The notes below the pieces were generated by a model, which did no database searches, was not told the origin of the DNA, and worked only from the letters and a program-made list of their open reading frames with translations. From the NCBI RefSeq assembly GCF_005862305.2, contig NZ_CP054021.1, forward strand, positions 2,932,501 through 2,996,500: a stretch of DNA of 64,000 nt, written 5' to 3'. Positions 8,694 through 47,641 of this stretch are shown one piece after another; positions within the stretch are counted from its first letter, which is position 1; the number at the start of each line of letters is the position of its first letter. The stretch is from Rhizobium indicum. Lineage in GTDB: Bacteria; Pseudomonadota; Alphaproteobacteria; Rhizobiales; Rhizobiaceae. Made by a program: the position numbers and the translations under genes.

Positions 8694-8870
8694 GGGGCAG
8701 CCTCTCCTCGAGCATTTGCGGACGCTGGCGAATATGGGCTCTGCTTTCGCGCTGTCAAACGGTATCGGCACCATCAGCGTCGCACTTGGTCTTGCGTCAC
8801 GCGCCAATCTCGCTAAAAGTGCCGCGACACCGGGTTTTCGCCGGCCTTTTATGCAACGGACCTCATCATC

Positions 8871-10094
8871 ATGGCATCATACAAAGACGTGAAGAAAGTC
8901 GTTCTCGCCTATTCCGGCGGCCTCGACACCTCGATTATCCTGAAGTGGCTGCAGACGGAGCTCGGCGCCGAAGTCGTCACCTTCACCGCCGATCTCGGCC
9001 AGGGCGAAGAGCTGGAGCCGGCGCGCAAGAAGGCCGAGATGCTCGGCATCAAGGAGATCTATATCGAGGATGTGCGCGAGGAATTCGTGCGCGATTTCGT
9101 CTTCCCGATGTTCCGTGCCAATGCCGTCTACGAGGGCGTCTATCTGCTCGGCACCTCGATCGCCCGTCCATTGATTTCCAAGCATCTGATCGATATCGCC
9201 CGCAAGACGGGTGCGGATGCGATCGCCCACGGCGCGACCGGCAAGGGCAACGACCAGGTTCGTTTCGAACTGTCCGCCTACGCCCTGAACCCCGATATCA
9301 AGATCATCGCGCCGTGGCGCGACTGGGCGTTCAAGAGCCGCACCGATCTGCTGGCCTTCGCCGAACAGCATCAGATCCCGGTTGCCAAGGACAAGAAGGG
9401 CGAGGCGCCGTTCTCCGTCGACGCCAACCTTCTGCATTCCTCCTCCGAGGGCAAGGTTCTCGAGGACCCCTCCAAGGAAGCGCCTGAATATGTGCATATG
9501 CGCACCATTTCGCCTGAGGCCGCACCCGACAAGGCGACGACCATCAAGGTCGGCTTCGAGCAGGGTGACGCGGTTTCGATCAATGGCGTGCGGATGAGCC
9601 CAGCGACGCTGCTCGCGACACTCAACAATTACGGCCGTGACAACGGCATTGGCCGTCTCGACCTCGTCGAGAACCGCTTCGTCGGCATGAAGTCGCGCGG
9701 CGTCTATGAAACGCCCGGCGGCACCATCCTGCTCTCGGCGCATCGCGCCATTGAATCGATCACGCTCGATCGTGGCGCCGCCCATCTCAAGGACGAGATC
9801 ATGCCGCGCTACGCCGAGCTGATCTATTATGGCTTCTGGTTCTCGCCGGAGCGCGAGATGCTGCAGGCGCTGATCGACAAGAGCCAGGAGCATGTCGAAG
9901 GCGAAGTGACGCTGAAGCTCTACAAGGGCAATGTCATGGTCATCGGCCGCGAAAGCGACAAGTCGCTCTATTCCGACAAGCTCGTCACCTTCGAGGACGA
10001 TCAGGGTGCCTACGACCAGAAGGATGCGGCCGGCTTCATCAAGCTCAATGCGCTGCGCCTGCGCACGCTCGCCAAGCGAAACCTCGCGAAGTAA
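8871..10094 (+). CDS. argG: Argininosuccinate synthase
   Basis: ArgG joins citrulline and aspartate using ATP in the penultimate step of arginine synthesis. The 407-residue length and the P-loop-like motif AYSGGLDTS at residues 13-21 are diagnostic. Further conserved blocks include [12 protein letters not shown] and [12 protein letters not shown]. The gene is monocistronic, followed by a strong intrinsic terminator, and divergent from the SDR gene. Confidence 0.98.
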
Positions 10095-35543: not shown

Positions 35544-37223
35544 ATGACGATCTACGACGAGCTTCGCAAAGCGCCGTTCAACCTCGACGACGCGGCGATA
35601 TCCTGGATCCGGGACGTCTATGCCTCGCTCGATCTCGATGACAAGATCGGCCAACTCTTCACCTTGATCATGATCGGGACGGATGAGGAGGATTTCAAAC
35701 GCATTGCTTCACTAAGGCCGGGCGGCGTAACGCGCTTCTTCACGGCTGACCTCGAGTTCGAGCGGCGGGTCATCTCTGACCTCGTGGCCAAGAGCAAAGT
35801 CCCGCCCATTATCAGCGCAGACCTCGAAGGCAGCCGTCATTCCTTCGCTTTCGGCACTCCGGTGCTGGGCCAACTCGGCCTTGCCGCCGTCGACGACGTT
35901 CAGGCGACCGAGAAAAGTTCGGAAATCTTGGCGCGCGAGGGCCGCGCGATGGGCGTGCGCTGGTCCTTCACGCCAGTCATCGACATAAATGCCGCGTTCC
36001 GATCGCCGATTGTCGGTACACGGTCATATGGCTCCGATGTCAACAAGATTGAGCGGCACGCGGTTGCCCATGTTCACGGTCTCCAACGAAATGGTGTTGC
36101 CGCCACCGCAAAGCACTGGCCGGGCGAGGGATACGACGACCGCGATCAGCACCTCGTTACGACGACCAATCCGCTTTCCATGGACGAGTGGAAGGAAACC
36201 TTCGGTCGGCTCTATGGAACGTTGATCACCGAAGGCGTGTTGGCAATAATGAGCGGGCACATTTCCCTTCCGGCCTACATTCGATCGAAGATGCCAGATG
36301 CCGGGCTTGAAGCTTTCCGACCGGCCTCGGTTTCCCGGTTGCTGAACATTGATCTTCTCCGAGACGAACTCGCCTTCAATGGCATCATCGTCTCTGACGC
36401 GACACCCATGGGAGGGCTGTCCGCCTGGGGCCACCACCTCGATACGCTGCCTGATATCATCGCGAATGGCTGCGACATGATCCTGTTCAGCGATGAACCT
36501 GAAGAGGATATGGCAGCGGTCAAGGCTGCCGTCGAAGATGGGAAAATTACTCCGGAACGACTTGAGGAAGCGGTTCTTCGCGTGCTGGCGCTCAAGGCGC
36601 ATCTCAAACTTTTTCAACCGTCAGATGTCCTCCCCGATGCGGCTGAAGCGCGCCATCTGCTTGCGCATCCAGACAATGTCGCTGCATCCAGGGAATACAT
36701 CGGCCGCTCGCCCACGCTTGTGAAGGACGTCAATGGTATCTTTCCGCTCGATCCGGCGAAGACAAAGCGTGTGCTGCTCGTCGACGGCGGCATCATTCAT
36801 CCGCTCATGCCGCAGCCACTGGAATTCTTGCTACCCGCGCTGTTGCGGAAGGAAGGTTTCGAAGTCACGATCGACCGACCGGACATCGTGCCGACCCCCG
36901 ACGACTTCGACCTCGTCCTCTACGCGCTAGGCGACGAGTCGCTGCTCGTGCGAGGTCGGATATTCGTCGACTGGCATAGGATGGGTGGTGGGGGCCTTTT
37001 CAAGGCCATGTACCGACCCTGGACGAATATTCCCTCAGTAATGATCTCCTTTGGGCACCCCTATCACCTTTACGATGCGCCGCGTGTACCGGCCTATATC
37101 AATGCGTACTCCACCATGGACAGCGTCCAGGAAGCCGTCGTTGATTGTATGCTCGGTCGCAAGCCCTTCCTCGGCACCAATCCGGTAGACCCTTTCTGTG
37201 GCCTTGAAGATGCGCGATATTGA
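35544..37223 (+). CDS. Glycoside hydrolase family 3 protein
   Basis: This 559-residue protein has a GH3 N-terminal TIM-barrel at about residues 10-345, with KHWPGEGYDDRDQH and the catalytic nucleophile Asp285 in IVSDATPMGG. A second alpha/beta sandwich follows to residue 540 (VLLVDGGIIHPLMPQ). It lacks a signal peptide, so it probably works on imported beta-glycosides or N-acetyl-glucosaminides in the cytoplasm; the substrate is not visible. GGGGGAA precedes the ATG. It is followed by a palindrome-rich spacer and no cotranscribed gene. Confidence 0.9.
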   Translation: MTIYDELRKAPFNLDDAAISWIRDVYASLDLDDKIGQLFTLIMIGTDEEDFKRIASLRPGGVTRFFTADLEFERRVISDLVAKSKVPPIISADLEGSRHSFAFGTPVLGQLGLAAVDDVQATEKSSEILAREGRAMGVRWSFTPVIDINAAFRSPIVGTRSYGSDVNKIERHAVAHVHGLQRNGVAATAKHWPGEGYDDRDQHLVTTTNPLSMDEWKETFGRLYGTLITEGVLAIMSGHISLPAYIRSKMPDAGLEAFRPASVSRLLNIDLLRDELAFNGIIVSDATPMGGLSAWGHHLDTLPDIIANGCDMILFSDEPEEDMAAVKAAVEDGKITPERLEEAVLRVLALKAHLKLFQPSDVLPDAAEARHLLAHPDNVAASREYIGRSPTLVKDVNGIFPLDPAKTKRVLLVDGGIIHPLMPQPLEFLLPALLRKEGFEVTIDRPDIVPTPDDFDLVLYALGDESLLVRGRIFVDWHRMGGGGLFKAMYRPWTNIPSVMISFGHPYHLYDAPRVPAYINAYSTMDSVQEAVVDCMLGRKPFLGTNPVDPFCGLEDARY

Positions 37224-37701
37224 AGTCGTTGGGAGCAGGCTGCCGGCCTATTGGAACGGGGCAACAGGCGCGTTCCAATGGACTATCCCGGCGACACAGT
37301 TCGTCAAGTGTCGCACGCACCGCATCCGTAGAAATGACGCCGCCTCGACGGGAATAGAACCGTCGGCATAGCACCGCCTTACCTGCTCGACAGGGCTATC
37401 ACAGCGTCATTGCGCATCACCACCTCTATATGTGCGCAGAATGCTGAGAGACGGACGAGGAGGAATTGGCGACGAAGCCATGAGCCTCTGTAGAAGAGAC
37501 ATCTTACGCGTTTTGGGCTGCTTCTGCGACGGAGGTAGTTCTTGCGCCGCTCTTTTCGCAAGTTCGAAGTCAAAATCAAAAGACATTTCGGGCCTCGTCC
37601 ACCATTTGGAAATCTCGAAGACTAGAATGCAGGAAACGTGCCAACCGCTGCGTTAGGCCTGGCACGCCGGCGTCAACCCTGTCGCCTCGCGCTATTGCGC
37701 C
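37224..37701. other. Gap after the GH3 gene without a credible gene
   Basis: Open frames here are short and lack family features. A perfect 9-bp inverted repeat, ATTGGAACG at 37250-37258 against CGTTCCAAT at 37271-37279 with a 12-base loop, lies about 30 bases after the GH3 stop. It may serve as a terminator or mRNA end. From 37702 the stretch continues into two palindromic repeats. Confidence 0.4.
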
Positions 37702-37753
37702 TAGAACAGGATGATTTTAGGCCGGGTCGGCCTAAAATCTGAATCCTGTTCTA
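37702..37753. repeat. Rhizobial palindromic repeat element 1
   Basis: The left arm TAGAACAGGATGATTTTAGG and the right arm CCTAAAATCTGAATCCTGTT plus CTA pair almost completely around GGCC-GGGTC-GGCC. It is a perfect-looking long hairpin of about 52 bp with a bulge of two or three bases. Confidence 0.85.
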
Positions 37754-37764
37754 AATTATATAGT

Positions 37765-37816
37765 TAGAGCATGATCTCAGCCGAAAACCGCCCACACTTT
37801 TCGGCATCATGCTCTA
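37765..37816. repeat. Rhizobial palindromic repeat element 2
   Basis: The arms TAGAGCATGAT...CCGAAAA and TTTTCGG...ATCATGCTCTA form a second hairpin of about 52 bp, 11 bp from the first. This consensus is scattered in intergenic regions of Rhizobium genomes; a half-copy also occurs at about 17802-17817. Its right end provides the TAG stop codon of the DUF3830 gene. Confidence 0.85.
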
Positions 37817-38227
37817 GGATACTGCCTCAAATCGAATGGATTGCGCGCCTTCCCACAGCGTGAGGCGCCCAATTTCGGCGAGTTGCTCGAGATTGGAGGT
37901 GATTGTGATGAAATGATTGCCAGCCAGTTGGCCCATTTTCGATGAAAAATCCACGCCTCCGTAGGCAAGCAGGATTTCCGTTTCGCTAATGCCTCCCGGG
38001 TAAAGGATGATATGACCGGGGGCAGGATGGCTCGTATGGTTCTCATAACCGACGCCGAAATCATGGTCGCCAAGCGGGATCCAAACGCCCTCGCCAGACC
38101 AGCGAACGTGCACAATTTTACCGTCGAACGGCATCTGCTTGATGAATGCTTCACAGGTTTTGGGCGCTCTGGCAGTTTCCAGGACAGCGTCGAAGATGAA
38201 TGGCCCTGCTGTAATTTTCAGTTTCAT
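37814..38227 (-). CDS. DUF3830 family protein
   Basis: This 137-residue protein belongs to DUF3830, a small cyclophilin-like beta-barrel family often found next to hydantoinase or amino-acid transport genes. Visible blocks are ETARAPKTCEAF and HPAPGHIILYPGGISETEILLAYG. The function is unknown. Its ATG overlaps the stop of the hydantoinase remnant (ATGA), so it was coupled to it. The final codons and the TAG stop lie in the end of the palindromic repeat at 37765-37816. Confidence 0.85.
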   Translation of the reverse strand: MKLKITAGPFIFDAVLETARAPKTCEAFIKQMPFDGKIVHVRWSGEGVWIPLGDHDFGVGYENHTSHPAPGHIILYPGGISETEILLAYGGVDFSSKMGQLAGNHFITITSNLEQLAEIGRLTLWEGAQSIRFEAVS

Positions 38228-38620
38228 GATGTCGCTCTTGTTAGATTTGACTGCTTGTTGATTTGTCTCGCCGCGGCTTTCCGATATTGCCCGTGGCCCT
38301 TGGTACCCACCTGGACGCCGTTTTCGACGACAGGCTTTCCGGCGACAATTGTCGTTATCGGCCAGCCGGTGATCTCGATCCCCTCGTAGAGCGAATAGTC
38401 TGCGCCATCATGCAGTTCCGCATGACGGATGGTCCGTTCGATGGCTGGATCCCAGATCGCGATGTCCGGATCCGCCCGAGGCGTCGATCGGGCGCGCAGC
38501 ACCCGACAGGCTCTGCCCGATCTGGACAATCTTGCCGTCTTTAATGCCGATATCCGCCTGGAAAACTTCCGCGGCAGTCGCAACCGTGCCGTTCCGGATG
38601 ATGAGATCGTAGTTGCTCAC
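38224..38620 (-). pseudogene. Dihydropyrimidinase/hydantoinase remnant with a large internal deletion
   Basis: The N-terminal 43 codons from a GTG at 38620 (with AGG upstream) encode the start of a hydantoinase-family amidohydrolase (YDLIIRNGTVATAAEV, ending at ARPIDASGG). After about 38472 the C-terminal end of the same family continues in another frame (ADPDIAIWDP, then ITGWPITTIVAGKPVVENG) to 38224. The 300 or so residues between, which contain all metal ligands and the catalytic core, are missing. The junction falls in TCGGGCGGATCCGGA and shifts the frame, so the product cannot be active. Confidence 0.85.
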
Positions 38621-38631
38621 AAGCCTGACCT

Positions 38632-39360
38632 TCAGTGTTGCAGGATTTTGCCAAGGAAAGCTTCGGTCCGCGGATTGTGTTTTCCCGCGAAAAACTCCTC
38701 GCTCGGACGATCCTCGACGATCTCGCCCTGATCGATGAAAATCACGCGTGTCGCCACCCGGCGGGCAAATCCCATCTCATGGGTGACGACCATCATCGTC
38801 ATGCCGTCCTTTGCCAGTCCGCTCATGACTTCGAGCACTTCGGAAATCATCTCTGGATCAAGCGCGGAGGTCGGCTCGTCGAAGAGCATGGCGAGCGGAT
38901 CCATCGCGAGCGCGCGAGCGATCGCCACGCGCTGCTGCTGCCCGCCGGAGAGTTGGCTTGGATATTTTTTCGCGTGGTCCGTCAGCCCGACGCGATCAAG
39001 AAGCGCCATGGCCTTGGCGTGGGCGGCAGTTTCGCTGCGGCCAATGACAATCTTCTGCGCCAGCATGATATTGTCGATGATCGTCAGATGCGGAAACAAT
39101 TCGAAGTTCTGGAAGACCATGCCTACCCGTGTGCGAAGATTCGGCAGATCGGTCTTCGGGTCGCCGACCTCGATACCATGCACCCGGATCGAACCTTCCT
39201 GAAACTGCTCGAGCCCGTTGACGCATTTGATCAATGTCGATTTGCCCGACCCCGAGGGACCGCAGACAACCACGACCTCACCGCGCTCAACGTTCACCGA
39301 GCAGTTCTTAAGGACAGCGAACTGACCGTAATATTTGGTAACGCCAGTGATCTCAATCAT
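38632..39360 (-). CDS. Polar amino-acid ABC transporter ATP-binding protein
   Basis: This 242-residue ATPase is of the GlnQ/HisP type. It has Walker [10 protein letters not shown], the Q-loop [10 protein letters not shown], the signature [15 protein letters not shown], Walker [13 protein letters not shown] and the switch histidine VTHEMGFA. It energises the permease and binding protein encoded upstream in the same operon (43206 and 43975). Its ATG overlaps the stop of the fused oxidoreductase gene by four bases. Confidence 0.95.
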
Positions 39361-42291
39361 GCCCGGCCTTTCTGGAAACGCGCGATGGAAAAGGGTTGCA
39401 AGGCTCGATCGGTCTCGCGACCGAGAACGAGCCGGGATGTTAACTGGCCGACGATCGGGCCGAGCGTATAGCCGTTTGAAGTGACGGCGTTGAAGAACCC
39501 GGGCATTGACGGATGTTCACCGAGGATCGGCGCACCGTCGATGTTGATGTTCATCGCCGCCCAGCTTCGGATGACGTGAAGTTTGCGCAGAGCGGGAACG
39601 ACGTGCTGGGCAACCCAAAGGTTCCCCTCAAGGCTCGACAGTAGCGGGCGTGGATGTTGGTGGACGGGATCGAGGCCTGCGGTCCAGCCGCCGCCGATAA
39701 TGAAGTTCCCGTTTGCCGCCTGCTTGAGTGTCAAATGGCGGTCGGCATGGGCGACGAGACACGAGATCAAAGGTGCTGCGGCCTCGGTAACCACCATCTG
39801 CAGCGGAGCACCGAATACCGGCACGTCGACACCGAGCATCGCGCCGATCCTTGAAGCGAAGGCTCCGGCTGCATTGACGATCCGTTTTGCCCGCACTATG
39901 CCCCTTGATGTCTTGACCTCGAACCCGTCGTCCGAGGTCCTTATCCCGGTGACCTCGCAATTTTCGAAGAGTTGAGCGCCGTCTCGCCGTGCCGCCTCCA
40001 ATATATATTGCGTCGCAACGAGAGGATTGATCTTGCCCTCCTGGGAGCAGTAGGCAGCGCCGACGAAGTGAGAAGACAGAGCAGGCTCCAGGGAGCGCAG
40101 TTCCTCTTGCCCGATCAAGCGGCAATCGATCCCGGCCGCGCACTCCACCCCGACCTTTTCCGCCAGAAAACGCATGTGGTCATCGGTTTCGGCCACCATG
40201 AGGCCGCCTGTGACCTTCATCTCGAAATCCTGTCCGAGCTCGCTTTGCAGCGCGGCCCAAAGAGCGATTGAATCCCGCTGGAGGGGAAGTGTTTGAGCGG
40301 CCGCTCCGCCGCCACCTTCGGCACGGGCACCGTGGTCGAAGGAAAGCAACTGGGCATGAAGGCTCCCTGCATTCCCTCCAGACGCCAGCGAGTTCGCAAA
40401 AGCGCGCTCCACCACCACAACGTCCTCGCCTTCCCGGGCAAGGAAAAGCGCCGTCGAAAGGCCTGCAATGCCGGCGCCGATTATCAGCGTGGACGTTTCT
40501 GCCACCGGCAAAGGTTGAGGATTCGCCGATGGGGGCTTTTCCGGCAAAAGTGCGCGCTTGTGGCCGCCCCATTCCGGCTTTTCGACTGCAAGCGCCGCCA
40601 GCGGAATAGGGCGAAGTGGCATTTGCGGAGCCAGAAAACCGCTTGTTTCGCCCGTGAGGTGCCGCTCTTTCGCGACGTCGGCGATCGCTTTGCCGCAGTA
40701 GCGGCTCTGACACCGCCCCATGCCTGCACGCGACAGGCGCTTTAATGTCGAGACGTCCTGCGCACTATTTGCGCTGAGCGTCCTCAAGACACCGTAAGTC
40801 ACCCCTTCGCAACGGCAGATCAATGCATCATCTGGCGGAATTGCAGCCTTTGTCTTTGCGTCGTCCTTCGGCGCAAAGACCTGCCAAAGCGCCCGCTGAA
40901 ACCGTCTGTGTCGGGCGAGCCTTTTCACTGCGCTTTCGTCGGCTTGGACAAGGAAGCTCAGTTTTCGCGCAATCGCGGGCGGCGATCTGCCCTTCTGCCA
41001 TCGCAACATGCGCACCGCCGAAACGCGCCGCTTCACCGACAATATGCACGTTTGCAAGCGTTGTCTGACCGTCGAGATCTCGCATTGCCCGCAGATCGCC
41101 GTCGGTGACCTCATGGCCGCATCCGAGTAGCCGGGACAGCTCATTGGAGGATGTGAAATTGCCGCCGATAAGGACCGTGTCAGCATCGAGATTGGTCTCG
41201 CCGTCTGGTCCGGCGAACGTGACGCTCTCGACACGTTGCGAACCGTTGATCGAGGTGAGCACGCTATTCCAGTCTATCTTGACGCCCATGGACCTCAGCG
41301 TCGATATCTGGCGCAATCCGTGACGGGCGAGCGCGGGATCCGTTGTCAGGAGGCCGAGGGCTGCCAGCGGCCGAGACCAGGGTGGCGGTGCTGCTTCCAG
41401 CAAGGCGACTATGGAGGCTCCTGCCTTTCGAAGTTCGTTTGCGACCTGCATATTCAAAGGACCGTTTCCGGCGACAATGATCCTTCGGCCGGGCACGGTT
41501 CCGTAGCTCCTCAGCAACGTCTGGGCGGCCCCTGTTGTCATCGCACCAGGAAGTGTCCAACCCCGCACCGGTGTAGGGCGTTCGTAGGCCCCCGTCGCGA
41601 TGATCAGTATTTTCGGCTTGCAGTAGAACGCCTGGCCGGATCCATAGCAGGCAATAATAAGCGAACCGTCGTCGTCACGTGCGGCACCCCACACCACTGT
41701 AGCGGTTAGAAATGTCACGCCGTGATCGCGCACTTGCCCTATGAGCGCTGCGCCGGACAAAGCCTGCTCGTCGCCACTCAAATGCTCGGCGGCGCTCCGT
41801 GTCGAGGGCTGTTTGAAATACTGCCCGCCGGCAGACGGCCGTTCATCAATAACAGTCACCTTGGCGCCGGCCGCAGCAAGGACCTCCGCTGCGGCAAGCC
41901 CTGCAGGCCCCGCTCCGACGATGAGAACGTCCATCGTCCTTGTCGTCAAGGACTGCGGCACACCGCAGAGATCGGCAATCTGACCAGTGGCAAGATCTGG
42001 CCGCGCAGCAGGGCGCAGGACCTGCATGTCATCGTCGACAGTGGTCATGCAGGCCCGGTGGCTGACTTTTCCGTCGATCGTCACGAGACAGTCGTGACAG
42101 ACACCCATTCCGCAGAAGAGGCCACGGCCGTCACCTTTGATGCCTCGGGAAAATTCATGCTGCCCCGTCGCCTCGATGGCGGCGGCAACAGACATGCCCT
42201 TTTCGGCAAATATCTGCAGACCGTCGACCGAGAGCCTGACCCGCGCATCGTCGGGCCTCAAACTCTGGTTTATGGAAGCGACGGGCATCAT
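39357..42291 (-). pseudogene. Fused [2Fe-2S]/FAD/BFD/DAO amino-acid dehydrogenase, split by one frameshift
   Basis: The first frame (42291 to about 40966) encodes a [2Fe-2S] ferredoxin domain with Cys60, Cys65, Cys68 and Cys81. A pyridine-nucleotide-disulfide FAD domain follows (GAGPAG at 127-132, second block GNGPLNMQVANELRK). The second frame (about 40961 to 39357) continues with a BFD-like [2Fe-2S] domain (CRCEGVT and GMGRCQSRYCG) and a D-amino-acid-oxidase domain (LIIGAGIAGLSTALFLARE). Removing one A from a run of four (40962-40965) restores a 977-residue protein. The domains equal the separate subunits of hydrogen-cyanide synthase (HcnABC), opine oxidase and D-hydroxyproline dehydrogenase. 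It is either a recent pseudogene, a sequencing error or a recoded gene. GAGGAA precedes the ATG. Confidence 0.8.
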
Positions 42292-42299
42292 GGAATTCC

Positions 42300-43190
42300 T
42301 CAGACGCTGAACGTCAGACCGAAATCGGCCACCAGCCTCTTCATGGCGGCGTCCTGCTCGGGTGGCAACGGCAGGCGCGGCGGACGCGGCAGGCCTGCGC
42401 CAAATCCCATGTGGGTCAGCAGTGACTTCGTTCCTGCGACATAGGCCTGGCCCCCGACCGCCTGAATGACAGGCAGCCATTTGAGGTAAAGCTCTCTTGC
42501 CTCATCGAACTTTTTCTCATTTGCGACAAGTTCGAAGATCCGCGCCATCGGTCCTGGCGCAACATTTGAAGCCACGGCCACCCAGCCCTGCGCACCCATA
42601 ACGAAAGACTCGAACCCGAGAATACCCCCGAACACAGTCATATCGTCGCCGGCCAGCCGGATGATATCGCGCACGCGCGTCACTTCGAGAGTGGACTCCT
42701 TGATATAATCGCAGCCGTCGATTTCGGCGATGCGCTTGACCAACTCCGGCGTCAGATCGACGTTTGCGGTCGCGGGATTGTTGTAGACCATAATCGGGAT
42801 AGCCACGGCAGACGCAATGCTCTTGTAGTGATGAACGAGTTCGTCATCCGTTGGGGTGGAATAGAACGGCGGAATAATCATGACACCGTCAGCTCCCATT
42901 GCCTCGGCCTTGACGCTAAGGCGAATGGACTCCCGCGTATCTTCCGCTCCTGTGCCGATCAGAACAGGCACCCGTCCCGCGACAGTTTCGATGACGGTCC
43001 TCGCCACACTATCGCGCTCTTCCTCGCTGAGCGACAGAAACTCACCCGTCGATCCAAGAGGGATCAGGCCATGGATACCTTCCTTGACCTGCCAGTCGGT
43101 AAAGGCAGCCAGCCCCTTCAGATCGACCGCGCCACTGGGATCCAAGGGAGTAATCATCACGGTGTAGACACCGCGGAACATCTTCTGCAT
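42300..43190 (-). CDS. DapA-family lyase
   Basis: This 296-residue class I aldolase belongs to the dihydrodipicolinate synthase/N-acetylneuraminate lyase family. The Schiff-base lysine is Lys164 (DYIKEST), Tyr136 lies in MVYNNPA, and GSTGEFLSLS is the substrate-carboxylate loop. Since a lysine-pathway DapA would not sit with a dehydrogenase and an amino-acid importer, a catabolic role is more likely, such as 1-pyrroline-4-hydroxy-2-carboxylate deamination. That is an inference. It is nine bases upstream of the fused dehydrogenase gene. Confidence 0.88.
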   Translation of the reverse strand: MQKMFRGVYTVMITPLDPSGAVDLKGLAAFTDWQVKEGIHGLIPLGSTGEFLSLSEEERDSVARTVIETVAGRVPVLIGTGAEDTRESIRLSVKAEAMGADGVMIIPPFYSTPTDDELVHHYKSIASAVAIPIMVYNNPATANVDLTPELVKRIAEIDGCDYIKESTLEVTRVRDIIRLAGDDMTVFGGILGFESFVMGAQGWVAVASNVAPGPMARIFELVANEKKFDEARELYLKWLPVIQAVGGQAYVAGTKSLLTHMGFGAGLPRPPRLPLPPEQDAAMKRLVADFGLTFSV

Positions 43191-43205
43191 TTGAGAATCC
43201 TGGTT

Positions 43206-43898
43206 CTAGCGCTTCTCGTTAATGGAAAGCCGAGATCCGGCTTGACCGAGACGCTTTTCGATATGGCTCTGGAAGAAGTCCCAGAGTGTTGTGAGGAGGA
43301 GGTAATAAATCGCCGCGACCGCAAACAGTTCGAGCACCATGAACCGCTCCTGGATGAGAACCTGGGTCCGGCGAAGGAGTTCTTCGACCGAGATGACGGA
43401 GGTGACAGAGGTCGTTTTCAAGAGACCGTTCACCGAATTGCCGAGAGGCGGAACGATAACTTTAAAGGCTTGCGGCATGACGATGTAGCGCATGATCTGA
43501 CGCTCCGTCATGCCGAGCGCGCGCGCTGCCCTGGTCTGGCCTTCCGGCACGGCTTCGATGCCGGCGCGAATGATCTCCGCGAGATAAGCCGCCTCGTTGA
43601 GAGCCAATCCGAGCAACGCCGCCTCTATGACGGTGAACTTGATGCCGAACAGCGGAAGCGCCGTGTAGATCGCAATCAACTGTACAAGAAGCGGCGTGCC
43701 GCGAAAAAGCCAGATATACGCCTTGGCAAGGTAGTATGGCACCCGCCGCGACGATCGCCGCATCAATGCAAGAGCAAAGCCCAGAATAAGCCCCGCAATC
43801 AACGAGACGACGGTGAGCCAAACGGTCGTGAACACCCCGCCAAGTATAAAGGGGTTGAACAGATAACCGAAGAAGCCAGACCAGTTCCAAAGCGACAT
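43206..43898 (-). CDS. Polar amino-acid ABC transporter permease
   Basis: This 230-residue inner-membrane protein has five or so helices and the HisM/GlnP family core: FRGTPLLVQL, EIIRAGIEAVPEGQTRAARAL and LGNSVNGLLKTTS. The single permease gene suggests a homodimer. The ATG at 43898 fits the family N-terminus; a TTG 18 bases earlier is an alternative. It lies between the binding-protein gene and the DapA-like gene. Confidence 0.92.
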   Translation of the reverse strand: MSLWNWSGFFGYLFNPFILGGVFTTVWLTVVSLIAGLILGFALALMRRSSRRVPYYLAKAYIWLFRGTPLLVQLIAIYTALPLFGIKFTVIEAALLGLALNEAAYLAEIIRAGIEAVPEGQTRAARALGMTERQIMRYIVMPQAFKVIVPPLGNSVNGLLKTTSVTSVISVEELLRRTQVLIQERFMVLELFAVAAIYYLLLTTLWDFFQSHIEKRLGQAGSRLSINEKR

Positions 43899-43974
43899 GA
43901 AGACGACTTTCTGCAAGAGGTTTGGCGCGACGTGGTCGCGCCCGCCTCATCTCTAAACGATCTTTGAAATCAGT

Positions 43975-44811
43975 TCAGCGGCCGGGGCCTTTGACCGAAT
44001 AGTCACCCGCGACCATCGGCAGACCGTATTTGTCAAAGAGCGCCTTCAGAGATCCATCCGCCTTCATGTCTTTCAACGTCGCAGACACGGCATCAGCCAA
44101 AGCCGGGCTTTTGAATGCGACAGAAACCGGAGCGGGGTAGAGGCCGCTGATTGCCCGTTTGAAGTCCCCGCGAGAATCGTACTCCTTGGCAACCGCGTCG
44201 ATCGACACGACACCCTGGACCTGGCTTGCCCGCAGAGCCTGGAAGGCCAGGGCGAAATTATCGAACGTCTGGATGGTCAAGCCTTCTTTGCCCGCGTCAC
44301 GCAGTTCCTTGTCGAGAAGGCGTGTCTTTGTTTCCTCGAAACCACCAATTTCGACACCGATCGTCATGCCGGCTAGATCATCTTTTGCGGCGACGCTTTT
44401 CTTCGAATCCGGCGCCACGGAGATGCTGATGGCCTGATCTTCATAGGGGATCATCTGCATGATCTTGGCGCGTTCCTCGGTGAAGAAAATGCCCGTATTG
44501 ATCATGTCCCAGCGGCCAGCCTGCAGACCCGGAACCATCGCGGAGAATTCGATCCGGACATATTCGGGTTCAAGGCAAAGGCGCTTGGCGATCTCTTTGC
44601 CGAGGTCGATGCGCATGCCCTTCAGATCACCCGTGGAGTCGATGAACTGGAGCGGAGGAAGCGTTGGATTGGTCGACATGACGAGCGTGCCGGGCTTGAT
44701 CAACTCGCCTGCCGCCACTTTGGGTTCGCAGGATTGAGCGAAGGCAAAAGACGCTGTGATCGACAGGAAGGACGCGGCAAGAACGCTGCGAGAGAAGTGT
44801 GAACGGAGCAT
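43975..44811 (-). CDS. Amino-acid ABC transporter substrate-binding protein
   Basis: This 278-residue periplasmic protein of SBP family 3 has a signal peptide with cleavage near FAFAQ-SC at residues 22-26. LPPLQFIDSTGDLKGMRIDLGKEIAKRL is the family's ligand-binding start and TIGVEIGGFEET the second lobe. The ligand is a polar amino acid or an opine-like derivative, not defined. AGAGG precedes the ATG. It is first in the minus-strand operon 44811-37814 and lies next to candidate GntR sites. Confidence 0.92.
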   Translation of the reverse strand: MLRSHFSRSVLAASFLSITASFAFAQSCEPKVAAGELIKPGTLVMSTNPTLPPLQFIDSTGDLKGMRIDLGKEIAKRLCLEPEYVRIEFSAMVPGLQAGRWDMINTGIFFTEERAKIMQMIPYEDQAISISVAPDSKKSVAAKDDLAGMTIGVEIGGFEETKTRLLDKELRDAGKEGLTIQTFDNFALAFQALRASQVQGVVSIDAVAKEYDSRGDFKRAISGLYPAPVSVAFKSPALADAVSATLKDMKADGSLKALFDKYGLPMVAGDYSVKGPGR

Positions 44812-44841
44812 GGAGAGCCTCTGGAGTTCGGTTCTTTATCG

Positions 44842-44875
44842 TTGGATCCCGACCGTGCATTCAAATGGGATCCCA
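44842..44875. promoter_or_regulatory. Candidate GntR operator pair upstream of the ABC operon
   Basis: Two related boxes, TTGGATCCCG at 44842-44851 and the perfect palindrome TGGGATCCCA at 44866-44875, are 24 bp apart. They lie between the gntR gene and the first gene of the ABC operon, in the position of a promoter or leader. Their pairing with a GntR factor is inferred from context. Confidence 0.45.
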
Positions 44876-44926
44876 CTTTTATACAAAAGTTCGCCGTAGA
44901 TGCAAGTGCATTCTCAGCTCGTCGAT

Positions 44927-45574
44927 TCAGTAGTTCGCAAGCACGCCCTGACGGACGACTTCGAGATGATCGGTCATGGCTCGGCGAGCCGCCTCGGCAT
45001 CGTTGGTGGCCAAGGCAAGCAGAATCGCTCGATGTTCCCGCACGCCCGGCTTTGCGCGCACGACAGGCAGCTGCCGCTCGAAGATCGTTGTGTAGCGCCG
45101 CATCTCCCCAATAGTGGTTGCCATAAAGGGGTTGCGGCTCTCGCTTGCGATATAGTTGTGAAGCGCATCGTCAAACGCCCAGACCACCTCTGGGTCAGGT
45201 TCGGGGTCGGCCTCGATCTCGTCAAGCATCCTTGTCAAAGGATCCAGTTCAAGTCGCGAAACGTGGGAACTGGCGAGCGCGGCTGCAGTTGGTTCGAGCA
45301 GCATCCTCATGGTGAGACTGTCAAGGTAGTCCTTGAGACTGATGACCCTGACCGAGAGAACGCCTTTTTCGTTTCTGACAAGTAGTCCCTCTCCTTCGAG
45401 ACGTCCCAGCGCGTGGCGCATGGGAGAACGCGAAACGGCATGTTTCGTCGCCAGGCGGCGTTGCTGGACGACCGATCCCCCCGCGAGCCTGGCTGATAGA
45501 ATATCGGCCAGCAGGGAACGGTAGGTTTCGTCAGCAAGGCTGGAGTCGCCAACTTCATTCAGACCATCGTCCAT
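44927..45574 (-). CDS. GntR/FadR-family transcriptional regulator (first copy)
   Basis: This is a 215-residue regulator. It has an N-terminal winged helix (YRSLLADILSARL to RNEKG, with SRSPMRHALGRLEGEGL) and a C-terminal FCD-type ligand domain (TMRMLLEPTAAALASS, EHRAILLALATNDAEAARRAM). It likely represses the ABC/dehydrogenase operon until the substrate binds. The ATG at 45574 is preferred to a GTG six bases upstream. It is transcribed toward the operon it probably controls and is divergent from a second GntR gene. Confidence 0.92.
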   Translation of the reverse strand: MDDGLNEVGDSSLADETYRSLLADILSARLAGGSVVQQRRLATKHAVSRSPMRHALGRLEGEGLLVRNEKGVLSVRVISLKDYLDSLTMRMLLEPTAAALASSHVSRLELDPLTRMLDEIEADPEPDPEVVWAFDDALHNYIASESRNPFMATTIGEMRRYTTIFERQLPVVRAKPGVREHRAILLALATNDAEAARRAMTDHLEVVRQGVLANY

Positions 45575-45692
45575 CTGCACTCGTTCCAGTCCTTTTCCAA
45601 ATCGGCTATCATATGTAACAAGTGATCGCGTAAGGAAAGCACGATGCCGCGTCGAGCGGCCAACGCCCTAAAGAACAAGGAAATGGCAAACA

Positions 45693-46376
45693 GTGACAGA
45701 CGCTTTGGCGGCCCCGGGTCGGAAAATCGCGGAGAAAGGGCAGCACAATCTTGCATCGCTGACCTACAAGGCCGTGTCCGACATGATCCGGCATCGCCGG
45801 CTGAAAGGCGGGCATGTCATCGTTGAGGCAAGGCTTGCCGAGACACTCGGGATTTCGAGGACGCCGCTGCGCGAAGCGCTGCAGAGGCTAGAGGGCGAAG
45901 GCCTGGTTCGCAAGGGCGATGGCCGAAACTACGTCGTGCGACAGGTGGATGTCGGCGAGTATCTTCAAAGCTTGAAACTGAGATTGTTGATCGAACCTGA
46001 AGCAGCGGTATTGTCGATCAACGCCATTCCGCGACGTCTTTTGATGAGCGTCCGGCAGGAAATTCACGACCTTTTGGGCGCGACGGCGTATCACACAGAC
46101 GCGCATTGGTTCTCGGATGACAATCTCCATAACATGATCATCGATCATTGCGGTAACGCGGTAATGGCAAAGGTACTGCGGGAGCTTCGGGCGACCACGC
46201 GTCTCTTCGAAATCGACCGCCTGAAAGATCGCCTGAAGCCGGACTCCACGGAACATCTCGTTATCATCGAGGCGATCGACCGGGGCGAGGTCGAAGAAAC
46301 GCGCCGAGCTGTCGGCCAACACATCGAAAGCCTAATCGCATTTACGCGAATGCATCTACAAGTCGCTGACCTTTAG
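45693..46376 (+). CDS. GntR/FadR-family transcriptional regulator (second copy)
   Basis: This 227-residue regulator has the winged helix TYKAVSDMIRHRRLKGG, ISRTPLREALQRLEGEGLVRK and an FCD-type C-domain (FSDDNLHNMIIDHCGNAVM, HLVIIEAIDRGEVEETRRAV). No ATG is at the start; a GTG at 45693 follows AAGGAAA. The two divergent GntR genes share 118 bp of promoter region, so they may cross-regulate. Its target could be the ABC operon or genes outside the window. Confidence 0.88.
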   Translation: MTDALAAPGRKIAEKGQHNLASLTYKAVSDMIRHRRLKGGHVIVEARLAETLGISRTPLREALQRLEGEGLVRKGDGRNYVVRQVDVGEYLQSLKLRLLIEPEAAVLSINAIPRRLLMSVRQEIHDLLGATAYHTDAHWFSDDNLHNMIIDHCGNAVMAKVLRELRATTRLFEIDRLKDRLKPDSTEHLVIIEAIDRGEVEETRRAVGQHIESLIAFTRMHLQVADL

Positions 46377-46691
46377 TATTGCAGTTGCATTTTTGTGTGT
46401 CACGGCAAGACGGGTTGGATGCGGGCGGAGGCGGGGGGCGACACCGGCCCGTGGTGGCAGCAGGCTATTCTGGTGCGTGGTCATTGGGACGCGGCTGGTT
46501 GTGCGACATCGTGTGTGTCCATGCCCTTGAGACATTGGCTGGCCAAATCGGCGTGTTCGCATCATGGCCAGCGCTTTACTCACCTGAGGAAAGGGAGAAT
46601 GATATCTGCAGTCCGCCGGTCTTTTGGTGAACCTCGCTTGGTCGGAACGATCAGATCGCCGCACGTCCCATAGCGAGTTCCAAGGTTCAAA
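46377..46691. other. Gap between the second GntR and LysR genes
   Basis: No gene or clear element is seen. The right end probably holds the promoter of the LysR gene. The open frames here lack ribosome-binding sites. Confidence 0.4.
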
Positions 46692-47549
46692 ATGCAGCAC
46701 TTCGACACAGATGCGCTCGCGACATTCGTGGCAGTGGCCGACGCCGGTGGCTTTACTGCAGCAGGGATGAGGATCGGCAAGTCGCAAGCGGCCGTCAGTC
46801 TCATCATCGCCCGTTTTGAAGAACAGATCGGGCGGAAGCTGTTTGACCGGACAAGACGCGGCGTGCACCTGACTGAAACAGGCGAGATCCTGATTGGCTA
46901 TGCCCGCCGTATCATTGCGATCGAGGACGAGGCGCTGGCAGCGCTCGATCCAGGTGCCATGCGCGGCTATGTCCGTCTTGGAATGCCGGACGACTACATC
47001 GAGCTGTTTGGCAAGCCTTTGATCGAAGAGTTTTCGCGCGCCAATCCCCGTATCCAAGTCGAGATCCAGTGCGACTTCTCCCGCTCCCTCGAGGCGATGG
47101 TCGAACACGGCACTATCAATCTCGCTATCATCACTCGTGCACCGGATTCAATCGTCGGCGAATTGCTGCGTCGCGAGCCGCTGGTCTGGTATGGACCTCC
47201 GGATGGGCAGATTGAACGACAGCGGCCCCTCCCTCTTGCCTTGTTTCCAGAGAAGGATTGTCGAGCACGGCCCCATATCGTCCACGCTCTCACCCAGGCC
47301 GGCATCGGATGGCGAGCGGCATGGACATCCTCACATCTGCCGTCGATTCAGGCGGCGCTGGATGCGGGTGCCGCGGTTACAGCTTTGCCGGCCTCGGTCG
47401 TCGCTTCGCGACACCGCCGTCTGACCGCGGAAGACGACGGCCTGCCGTCGCTGAAACCGCTTGAGATCGCCCTTCTCGTTCCACATGGCGCGCGCGCCGC
47501 TGTTCGCACGGTCGCTAGCTTCGTCCGCTCGCATTTTCAGCAGCTTTGA
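46692..47549 (+). CDS. LysR-family transcriptional regulator
   Basis: This 285-residue regulator has an N-terminal winged helix (FVAVADAGGFTAAGMRIGKSQAAVSLIIARFE) and a C-terminal periplasmic-binding-like sensor domain from about residue 90. The end of the DNA-binding domain, FDRTRRGVHLTETGEIL, is typical. It converges on the class III aminotransferase gene with 92 bp between stops. It may control the TRAP operon or other genes; LysR factors usually act on a divergent gene, but none adjoins it here. Confidence 0.93.
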   Translation: MQHFDTDALATFVAVADAGGFTAAGMRIGKSQAAVSLIIARFEEQIGRKLFDRTRRGVHLTETGEILIGYARRIIAIEDEALAALDPGAMRGYVRLGMPDDYIELFGKPLIEEFSRANPRIQVEIQCDFSRSLEAMVEHGTINLAIITRAPDSIVGELLRREPLVWYGPPDGQIERQRPLPLALFPEKDCRARPHIVHALTQAGIGWRAAWTSSHLPSIQAALDAGAAVTALPASVVASRHRRLTAEDDGLPSLKPLEIALLVPHGARAAVRTVASFVRSHFQQL

Positions 47550-47641
47550 CACTATCTACTGTCCCCGTGATCAGGGTCGCGATCCGGTGAACGGCCAGTT
47601 GCAGGGCATATGGGTTTCAGGATCCCAAAACAGGAAATTGG

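Follow-up and report, generated by a model that had tools for sequence, protein, structure and literature searches.

A conserved gene for a predicted single-chain gamma-alpha-beta dehydrogenase has a broken reading frame in Rhizobium indicum

The fused gene and its described counterparts

D-hydroxyproline dehydrogenase (D-HypDH), opine dehydrogenase (OpnDH), L-proline dehydrogenase (L-ProDH) and hydrogen cyanide (HCN) synthase have been assigned to one heteromeric flavin-containing group (PMC4575208). The D-hydroxyproline and opine dehydrogenases are alpha4 beta4 gamma4 assemblies of three separate subunits, the gamma-like part of the archaeal L-proline dehydrogenase already forms the N-terminus of alpha, and the purification of opine oxidases had proved difficult (PMC4575208). 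Here, we analyse a stretch of 64,000 nucleotides from Rhizobium indicum (the window: contig NZ_CP054021.1, positions 2,932,501 to 2,996,500), in which gamma-, alpha- and beta-like parts are joined in a single gene that is now read in two frames. We consider it likely that this gene encodes a widespread single-chain dehydrogenase and recently lost its frame here by a two-base shortening; because the frame is lost, no full-length enzyme is expected in this strain. The gene and its parts, which involve flavin adenine dinucleotide (FAD), flavin mononucleotide (FMN) and iron-sulphur sites, are:

39357..42291, minus strand: fused gamma-alpha-beta FAD-dependent dehydrogenase gene, frame-broken here (open reading frames, Pfam, genus comparison)
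42019..42246, minus strand: Fer2_4 [2Fe-2S] domain, gamma-like (Pfam, 63.5 bits, first piece)
42049-42114, minus strand: Cys-X4-Cys-X2-Cys-X12-Cys of the Fer2_4 domain (motif check)
40990..41934, minus strand: Pyr_redox_2 FAD/NAD domain, alpha-like (Pfam, 89 bits, first piece)
41899-41916, minus strand: GAGPAG of the Pyr_redox_2 domain (motif check)
40674..40823, minus strand: Fer2_BFD [2Fe-2S] domain (Pfam, 32.8 bits, cut-off 26, second piece)
40695-40817, minus strand: four-Cys motif of the Fer2_BFD domain (motif check)
39432..40487, minus strand: DAO domain, beta-like, catalytic (Pfam, 215.9 bits, second piece)
40461-40478, minus strand: GAGIAG of the DAO domain (motif check)
39561-39569, minus strand: Arg-Ser-Trp (RSW) of the DAO domain (motif check)

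The gene counts 2935 bases, a multiple of three plus one, as an earlier sequence-only reading of the window had stated; the four domains that it had placed in one unit over two frames were all found by Pfam. The 5' frame gives 487 residues and stops at 40828, and the 3' frame is open down to the stop at 39357. The gene is the single DNA match in its own 7.53-Mb, six-contig genome, where it is located on the 5.03-Mb contig.

With the protein of an intact relative as query (E 1e-150), the fused gene was recovered in 27 of 148 genus genomes, R. indicum included; in each of the 26 others it reads as a single frame, 974-1096 codons long and uninterrupted by stops, and it is split into two matches only in R. 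indicum. One genome, G003, was excluded from the fused counts, its matches being partial, beta-type, 37-42% identical and on short contigs. When wider flanks were read, the gene was open in 22/22 loci (19 genus genomes and three named plasmid records). A scan of one genome per species (84,980 species) with short peptide patterns from one protein yielded 176 stretches encoding a relative, the best of which gave 79 named loci, mainly from Alpha- and Betaproteobacteria judging by their titles; the gene is open in 78 of these. The genus, wider-flank and named-locus sets share members. Of 8000 candidates scored from a database of 5.8 billion proteins, 1867 reached E 1e-100; the 120 matches listed have lengths of 943-1032 residues. 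No identical split protein from another strain occurred among the best 120 of 1583, where a 90% cluster could hide one, and the best protein in the size range of the N-terminal piece was, among the matches listed, 60% identical.

The fusion is the normal, conserved form and no defect. The suggestion that it might be an oddity or inactive does not agree with the single open frame in 26/26 other genus genomes and 78/79 named loci; that one fused gene was broken by a frame change is borne out, as relatives read one open frame where R. indicum reads two. Two genes that had never been fused are favoured only by the two-frame layout of the window itself. The comparison of close relatives at the junction, proposed earlier as a check, went against them, as did the single frame in all 26 genus relatives and all 22 wider loci, and we give this alternative practically no credence.

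The exception among the named loci, L096 (8001-10908, labelled Marinicella sp. W31), is the only other frame-broken fused gene of the 79 and is matched in three pieces. A stop in the fused gene of L105 is terminal (residue 981 of 984). The fused gene of L043 leaves one to five bases unaligned with the window, probably through alignment-end trimming, which probably also explains the same pattern in dapA of L026, a permease of L029 and the DUF3830 genes of L027 and L043.

Three motifs of the heteromeric group recur in the fused protein. The gamma motif, Cys-X4-Cys-X2-Cys-X11~12-Cys, is present in the window and invariant in 46 fused proteins; Gly-X-Gly-X2-Gly of the alpha and beta parts reads GAGPAG and GAGIAG; and Arg-X-Trp of beta, a putative FMN site, reads RSW, with R and W invariant in the 46 proteins. 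Both elements of the second Cys motif, Cys-X-Cys and Cys-X4-Cys, are present, 32 residues apart (31 in 1y56_A, by alignment). Compared with D-hydroxyproline and opine dehydrogenase, the parts and motifs are the same except for this spacing (PMC4575208). Because there are no separate subunits but one open frame in 26/26 genus relatives, we regard the protein as a fused variant that would work like the heteromeric group and not as a member of it. The earlier statement that characterised relatives use separate subunits holds for D-hydroxyproline and opine dehydrogenase and is less apt for the archaeal L-proline dehydrogenase, with its gamma-like part within alpha (PMC4575208).

That L-proline dehydrogenase, from Pyrococcus horikoshii (1y56, chains A and B), has the same order of parts as the profile of 46 fused proteins and keeps the R-x-W position. 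Chain A comprises the gamma-like, FAD and BFD parts and chain B the DAO part, two chains where the fused protein has one, and the gamma-like part of chain A lacks the cysteines that are invariant in fused proteins. A fold comparison of the DAO half placed 1y56 first, tied with glycine oxidase 4ysh. Two-gene relatives, found with P0147 (source label 'D-hydroxyproline dehydrogenase subunit alpha'), occur in 5 loci as gamma-alpha followed by beta; the genes are adjacent or slightly overlapping. Identity in the gamma-alpha part is ~41-43%, and the beta gene uses a different frame and shares 34-40% identity with the beta part of the fused protein. The hydrogen cyanide synthase HcnABC is placed in the heteromeric group (PMC4575208) but has separate subunits. 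Heterotetrameric sarcosine oxidase (2gag, 1vrq) matches the fused protein by profile with the N-terminal half of alpha and with beta; the sarcosine oxidase models score below cut-off, TIGR01372 (SoxA) at 100.1 of 1164 bits with the first piece and TIGR01373 (SoxB) at 135.7 of 529 with the second. A candidate separate-subunit D-HypDH paralogue on contig 5 of the R. indicum genome was rejected, as family models identify true soxB and soxD plus a split soxA. Two more alpha-like/beta-like pairs (G000:C3:188814-191346 and G000:C1:3389802-3392859) are probably sarcosine oxidases.

Place and nature of the frame change

The break was located by alignment:

40975..40983 (about), minus strand: frame-change site, GC-rich, with two bases fewer than any close relative compared (alignment)

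The junction was compared with that of seven close relatives (six from genus genomes and one from a plasmid record of Rhizobium sullae WSM1592) and then with five further loci (L170, L172 and L173 from the genus, L050 and L088 named), some of which are perhaps the same strains; all nine other genus genomes with at least 94% identity in the genus search are covered. Against each of the seven, the window lacks two bases at ~40975-40983, in a short GC-rich repeat that follows the coding region of the alpha FAD domain and precedes that of the BFD domain, and the five further loci have the same two extra bases. The site lies upstream of AAAA (40962-40965) on the minus strand and, between the two, the 3' frame already encodes the relatives' residues (by eye). 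The shift is therefore a two-base shortening and not an added A. A single extra A in that AAAA, the cause given by the sequence-only reading, is ruled out by the same run in 7/7 close relatives and in the five further loci. The window gene is two bases below the length of its relative in L028, which has 978 residues plus a stop.

Ribosomes that shift frame at the site could still make the full protein, as had also been proposed; in favour of such recoding, both frames are open with all motifs kept. However, no genus relative carries or needs a shift (26/26 open), 78/79 named loci are open, the shift site is not conserved and the AAAA run is not at the point of change, which makes recoding exceedingly improbable. 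Alternatively, the two pieces could be made separately, by a restart of the second frame at GTG 40928, and act as a two-chain enzyme: this possible in-frame GTG lies ~47-55 nt downstream of the change, and two-gene relatives exist. Yet the cut runs within alpha, between its FAD and BFD domains, whereas in two-gene relatives the division is between alpha and beta; inspection by eye showed no clear ribosome-binding sequence, and the 487-residue piece ends in out-of-frame residues. We judge a two-chain enzyme very improbable.

Both halves keep all cofactor motifs, and the private changes of the window gene are 25 synonymous and 10 non-synonymous, where 74% non-synonymous would be expected without selection (rough P 1.6e-8), a pattern that reads as purifying in both. 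Because motifs and pattern are retained, the break is presumably recent, or else a local sequence error. In two relatives, L024 and L026, private changes in the N-terminal half are mostly non-synonymous (12 vs 4 synonymous, and 9 vs 5), a trend that the other relatives do not show and that may reflect local error or relaxed constraint.

An intact gene in the strain, obscured by a base-call or assembly error, is unlikely in our view but has to be taken seriously. Its arguments are (i) that the break occurs in this genome only, among genus genomes with the gene, (ii) that neither piece shows other damage and both have a purifying pattern, (iii) that the site lies in a short GC-rich repeat and (iv) that soxA elsewhere in the assembly is likewise split over two frames. 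On the other side, a 400-kb comparison with genome G115 revealed no excess of frame breaks: 5/233 of the genes of G115 are broken in R. indicum (this gene included) and 5/240 of its own are broken in G115. These counts omit events that mirror one in the opposite direction and retain breaks that lie 200 nt or more into a gene and 100 nt or more from its end; this filter was set after seeing 19 and 29 raw rows. Moreover, the same operon contains real damage, in hydA.

Several points weigh against a recent true loss from a gene of the proposed type. The printed spacing of the second Cys motif is 15-20 (PMC4575208) vs the 32 found here, and the fold comparison tested well only the C-terminal part, its matches falling mainly on residues 599-982. 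The fused gene has accumulated no further damage. The loss of hydA alone is no sign of operon death: the genomes G011, G026 and G115 have lost most of hydA, with junctions that differ between the three, and have an open dehydrogenase. Finally, a local sequence error at the junction is a possible explanation, and soxA of the same assembly is also frame-split. This soxA lies on contig 5 in the set soxB-soxD-soxA (G000:C5, L207 4060-7250), in pieces of 518 aa (soxA profile 3-433) and 587 aa (427-995), and could be a second recent loss or an assembly weakness.

The operon and the proposed role of the enzyme

The fused gene lies within a conserved operon that includes an ATP-binding cassette (ABC) transporter and a dihydrodipicolinate synthase (DHDPS) homologue:

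45693..46376, plus strand: divergent GntR/FCD regulator
44927..45580, minus strand: GntR/FCD regulator
43975..44811, minus strand: family 3 solute-binding protein
43206..43916, minus strand: amino-acid ABC transporter permease
42300..43190, minus strand: DapA-family (DHDPS) enzyme
38632..39360, minus strand: amino-acid ABC transporter ATPase, four-base overlap with the end of the fused gene
38263..38620, minus strand: hydA remnant (dihydropyrimidinase/hydantoinase), ~1 kb deleted at 38474-38475
37814..38227, minus strand: DUF3830 protein

The order, following the annotation of Agrobacterium vitis pAt and Aureimonas AU20, is two divergent GntR regulators, solute-binding protein, permease, DapA-family enzyme, fused gene, ATPase, hydA and DUF3830. 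No RNA element scored above its gathering score in 37000-47600, and the flanking repeats amount to just one 27-nt direct pair (70%) and three inverted pairs (73-76%).

We propose that the intact enzyme, by analogy, most probably acts as a one-chain counterpart of the heteromeric proline/hydroxyproline/opine dehydrogenases. The FAD of the DAO domain would most likely oxidise a carbon-nitrogen bond of an amino or imino acid; electrons would pass from it to an FMN located between beta and alpha, and then, via the iron-sulphur clusters and the second FAD, to an acceptor of the respiratory chain, a route modelled on the heteromeric enzymes (PMC4575208). The ABC transporter may import the substrate, the DapA-like enzyme may process the product (an oxo or imino acid) and HydA, where present, may supply a ring-shaped precursor.

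The hydroxyproline pathway also uses a DHDPS-superfamily enzyme (PMC4113996), and a DapA-like gene lies near the fused gene, not always adjacent, in 79/79 named loci; its role as a pyrroline-hydroxycarboxylate deaminase is only putative. A proline-racemase-family epimerase (PF05544) was found in 0/79 loci (E 1e-10; flanks of at most 8 kb per side, less on short contigs) and none in the window, using three queries of which two were certainly in the right frame and the third was chosen by rule of thumb; three genes of this family lie elsewhere in the R. indicum genome. A canonical hydroxyproline operon was rejected because of this absence, which also makes a new substrate at least as likely as hydroxyproline. 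A substrate of the hydroxyproline or proline type is conceivable but doubtful, another amino or imino acid is rather probable and something else is improbable.

The hydA interval (38228-38631) measures 404 bases in the window vs 1441 in relatives with hydA. Among the 79 named loci, 50 have hydA covered to at least 96%, 3 have part of it and 26 gave no match (E 1e-12; some contigs are short), and the A. vitis gene passes the D-hydantoinase model (522 bits vs a cut-off of 393). That many lineages carry hydA and M20 deacylase genes suggests a supply of some substrates as cyclic ureides or in N-acyl form. The chances seem to us evenly balanced that the dehydrogenase and its DapA-like partner, with loosely attached hydantoinase, M20 deacylase and DUF3830, make up a catabolic module not described before, which occurs mainly in Alpha- and Betaproteobacteria. 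In this reading, the module would serve an amino or imino acid that is supplied also as a ring-shaped ureide or in N-acyl form; its ring-opening step would have been lost repeatedly and the core enzyme just now in this strain.

A search of titles and abstracts in the open-access literature, subscription papers being mostly outside its scope, returned no description of the single-chain form, and the open-access search found no paper naming DUF3830. The broken copy itself is either a commonplace recent loss of a gene or an error in the sequence, and the operon is the more interesting part. The fused enzyme is found in many soil and root bacteria, and its conserved operon points to a catabolic route of common root bacteria. 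As all three subunits are joined in one gene, this enzyme group could become easier to study.

An internal loss of ~1 kb from hydA occurs in four genomes (the window, L024, L025 and L028). The junction differs in each of them, and the right ends all fall within ~31 bases of one another. In a star-like operon tree of low support these genomes are not grouped; the deletions may represent repeated loss or one old deletion later trimmed. An M20 (ArgE/DapE-type) deacylase gene stands beside the fused gene in several lineages, with or without hydA: in four loci (L086, L087, L092 and L093) and, as a more distant one, in sixteen betaproteobacterial loci of L103-L124. Locus L042 carries two DUF3830 genes (356-757 and 8856-9263), the first of them far upstream of the fused gene.
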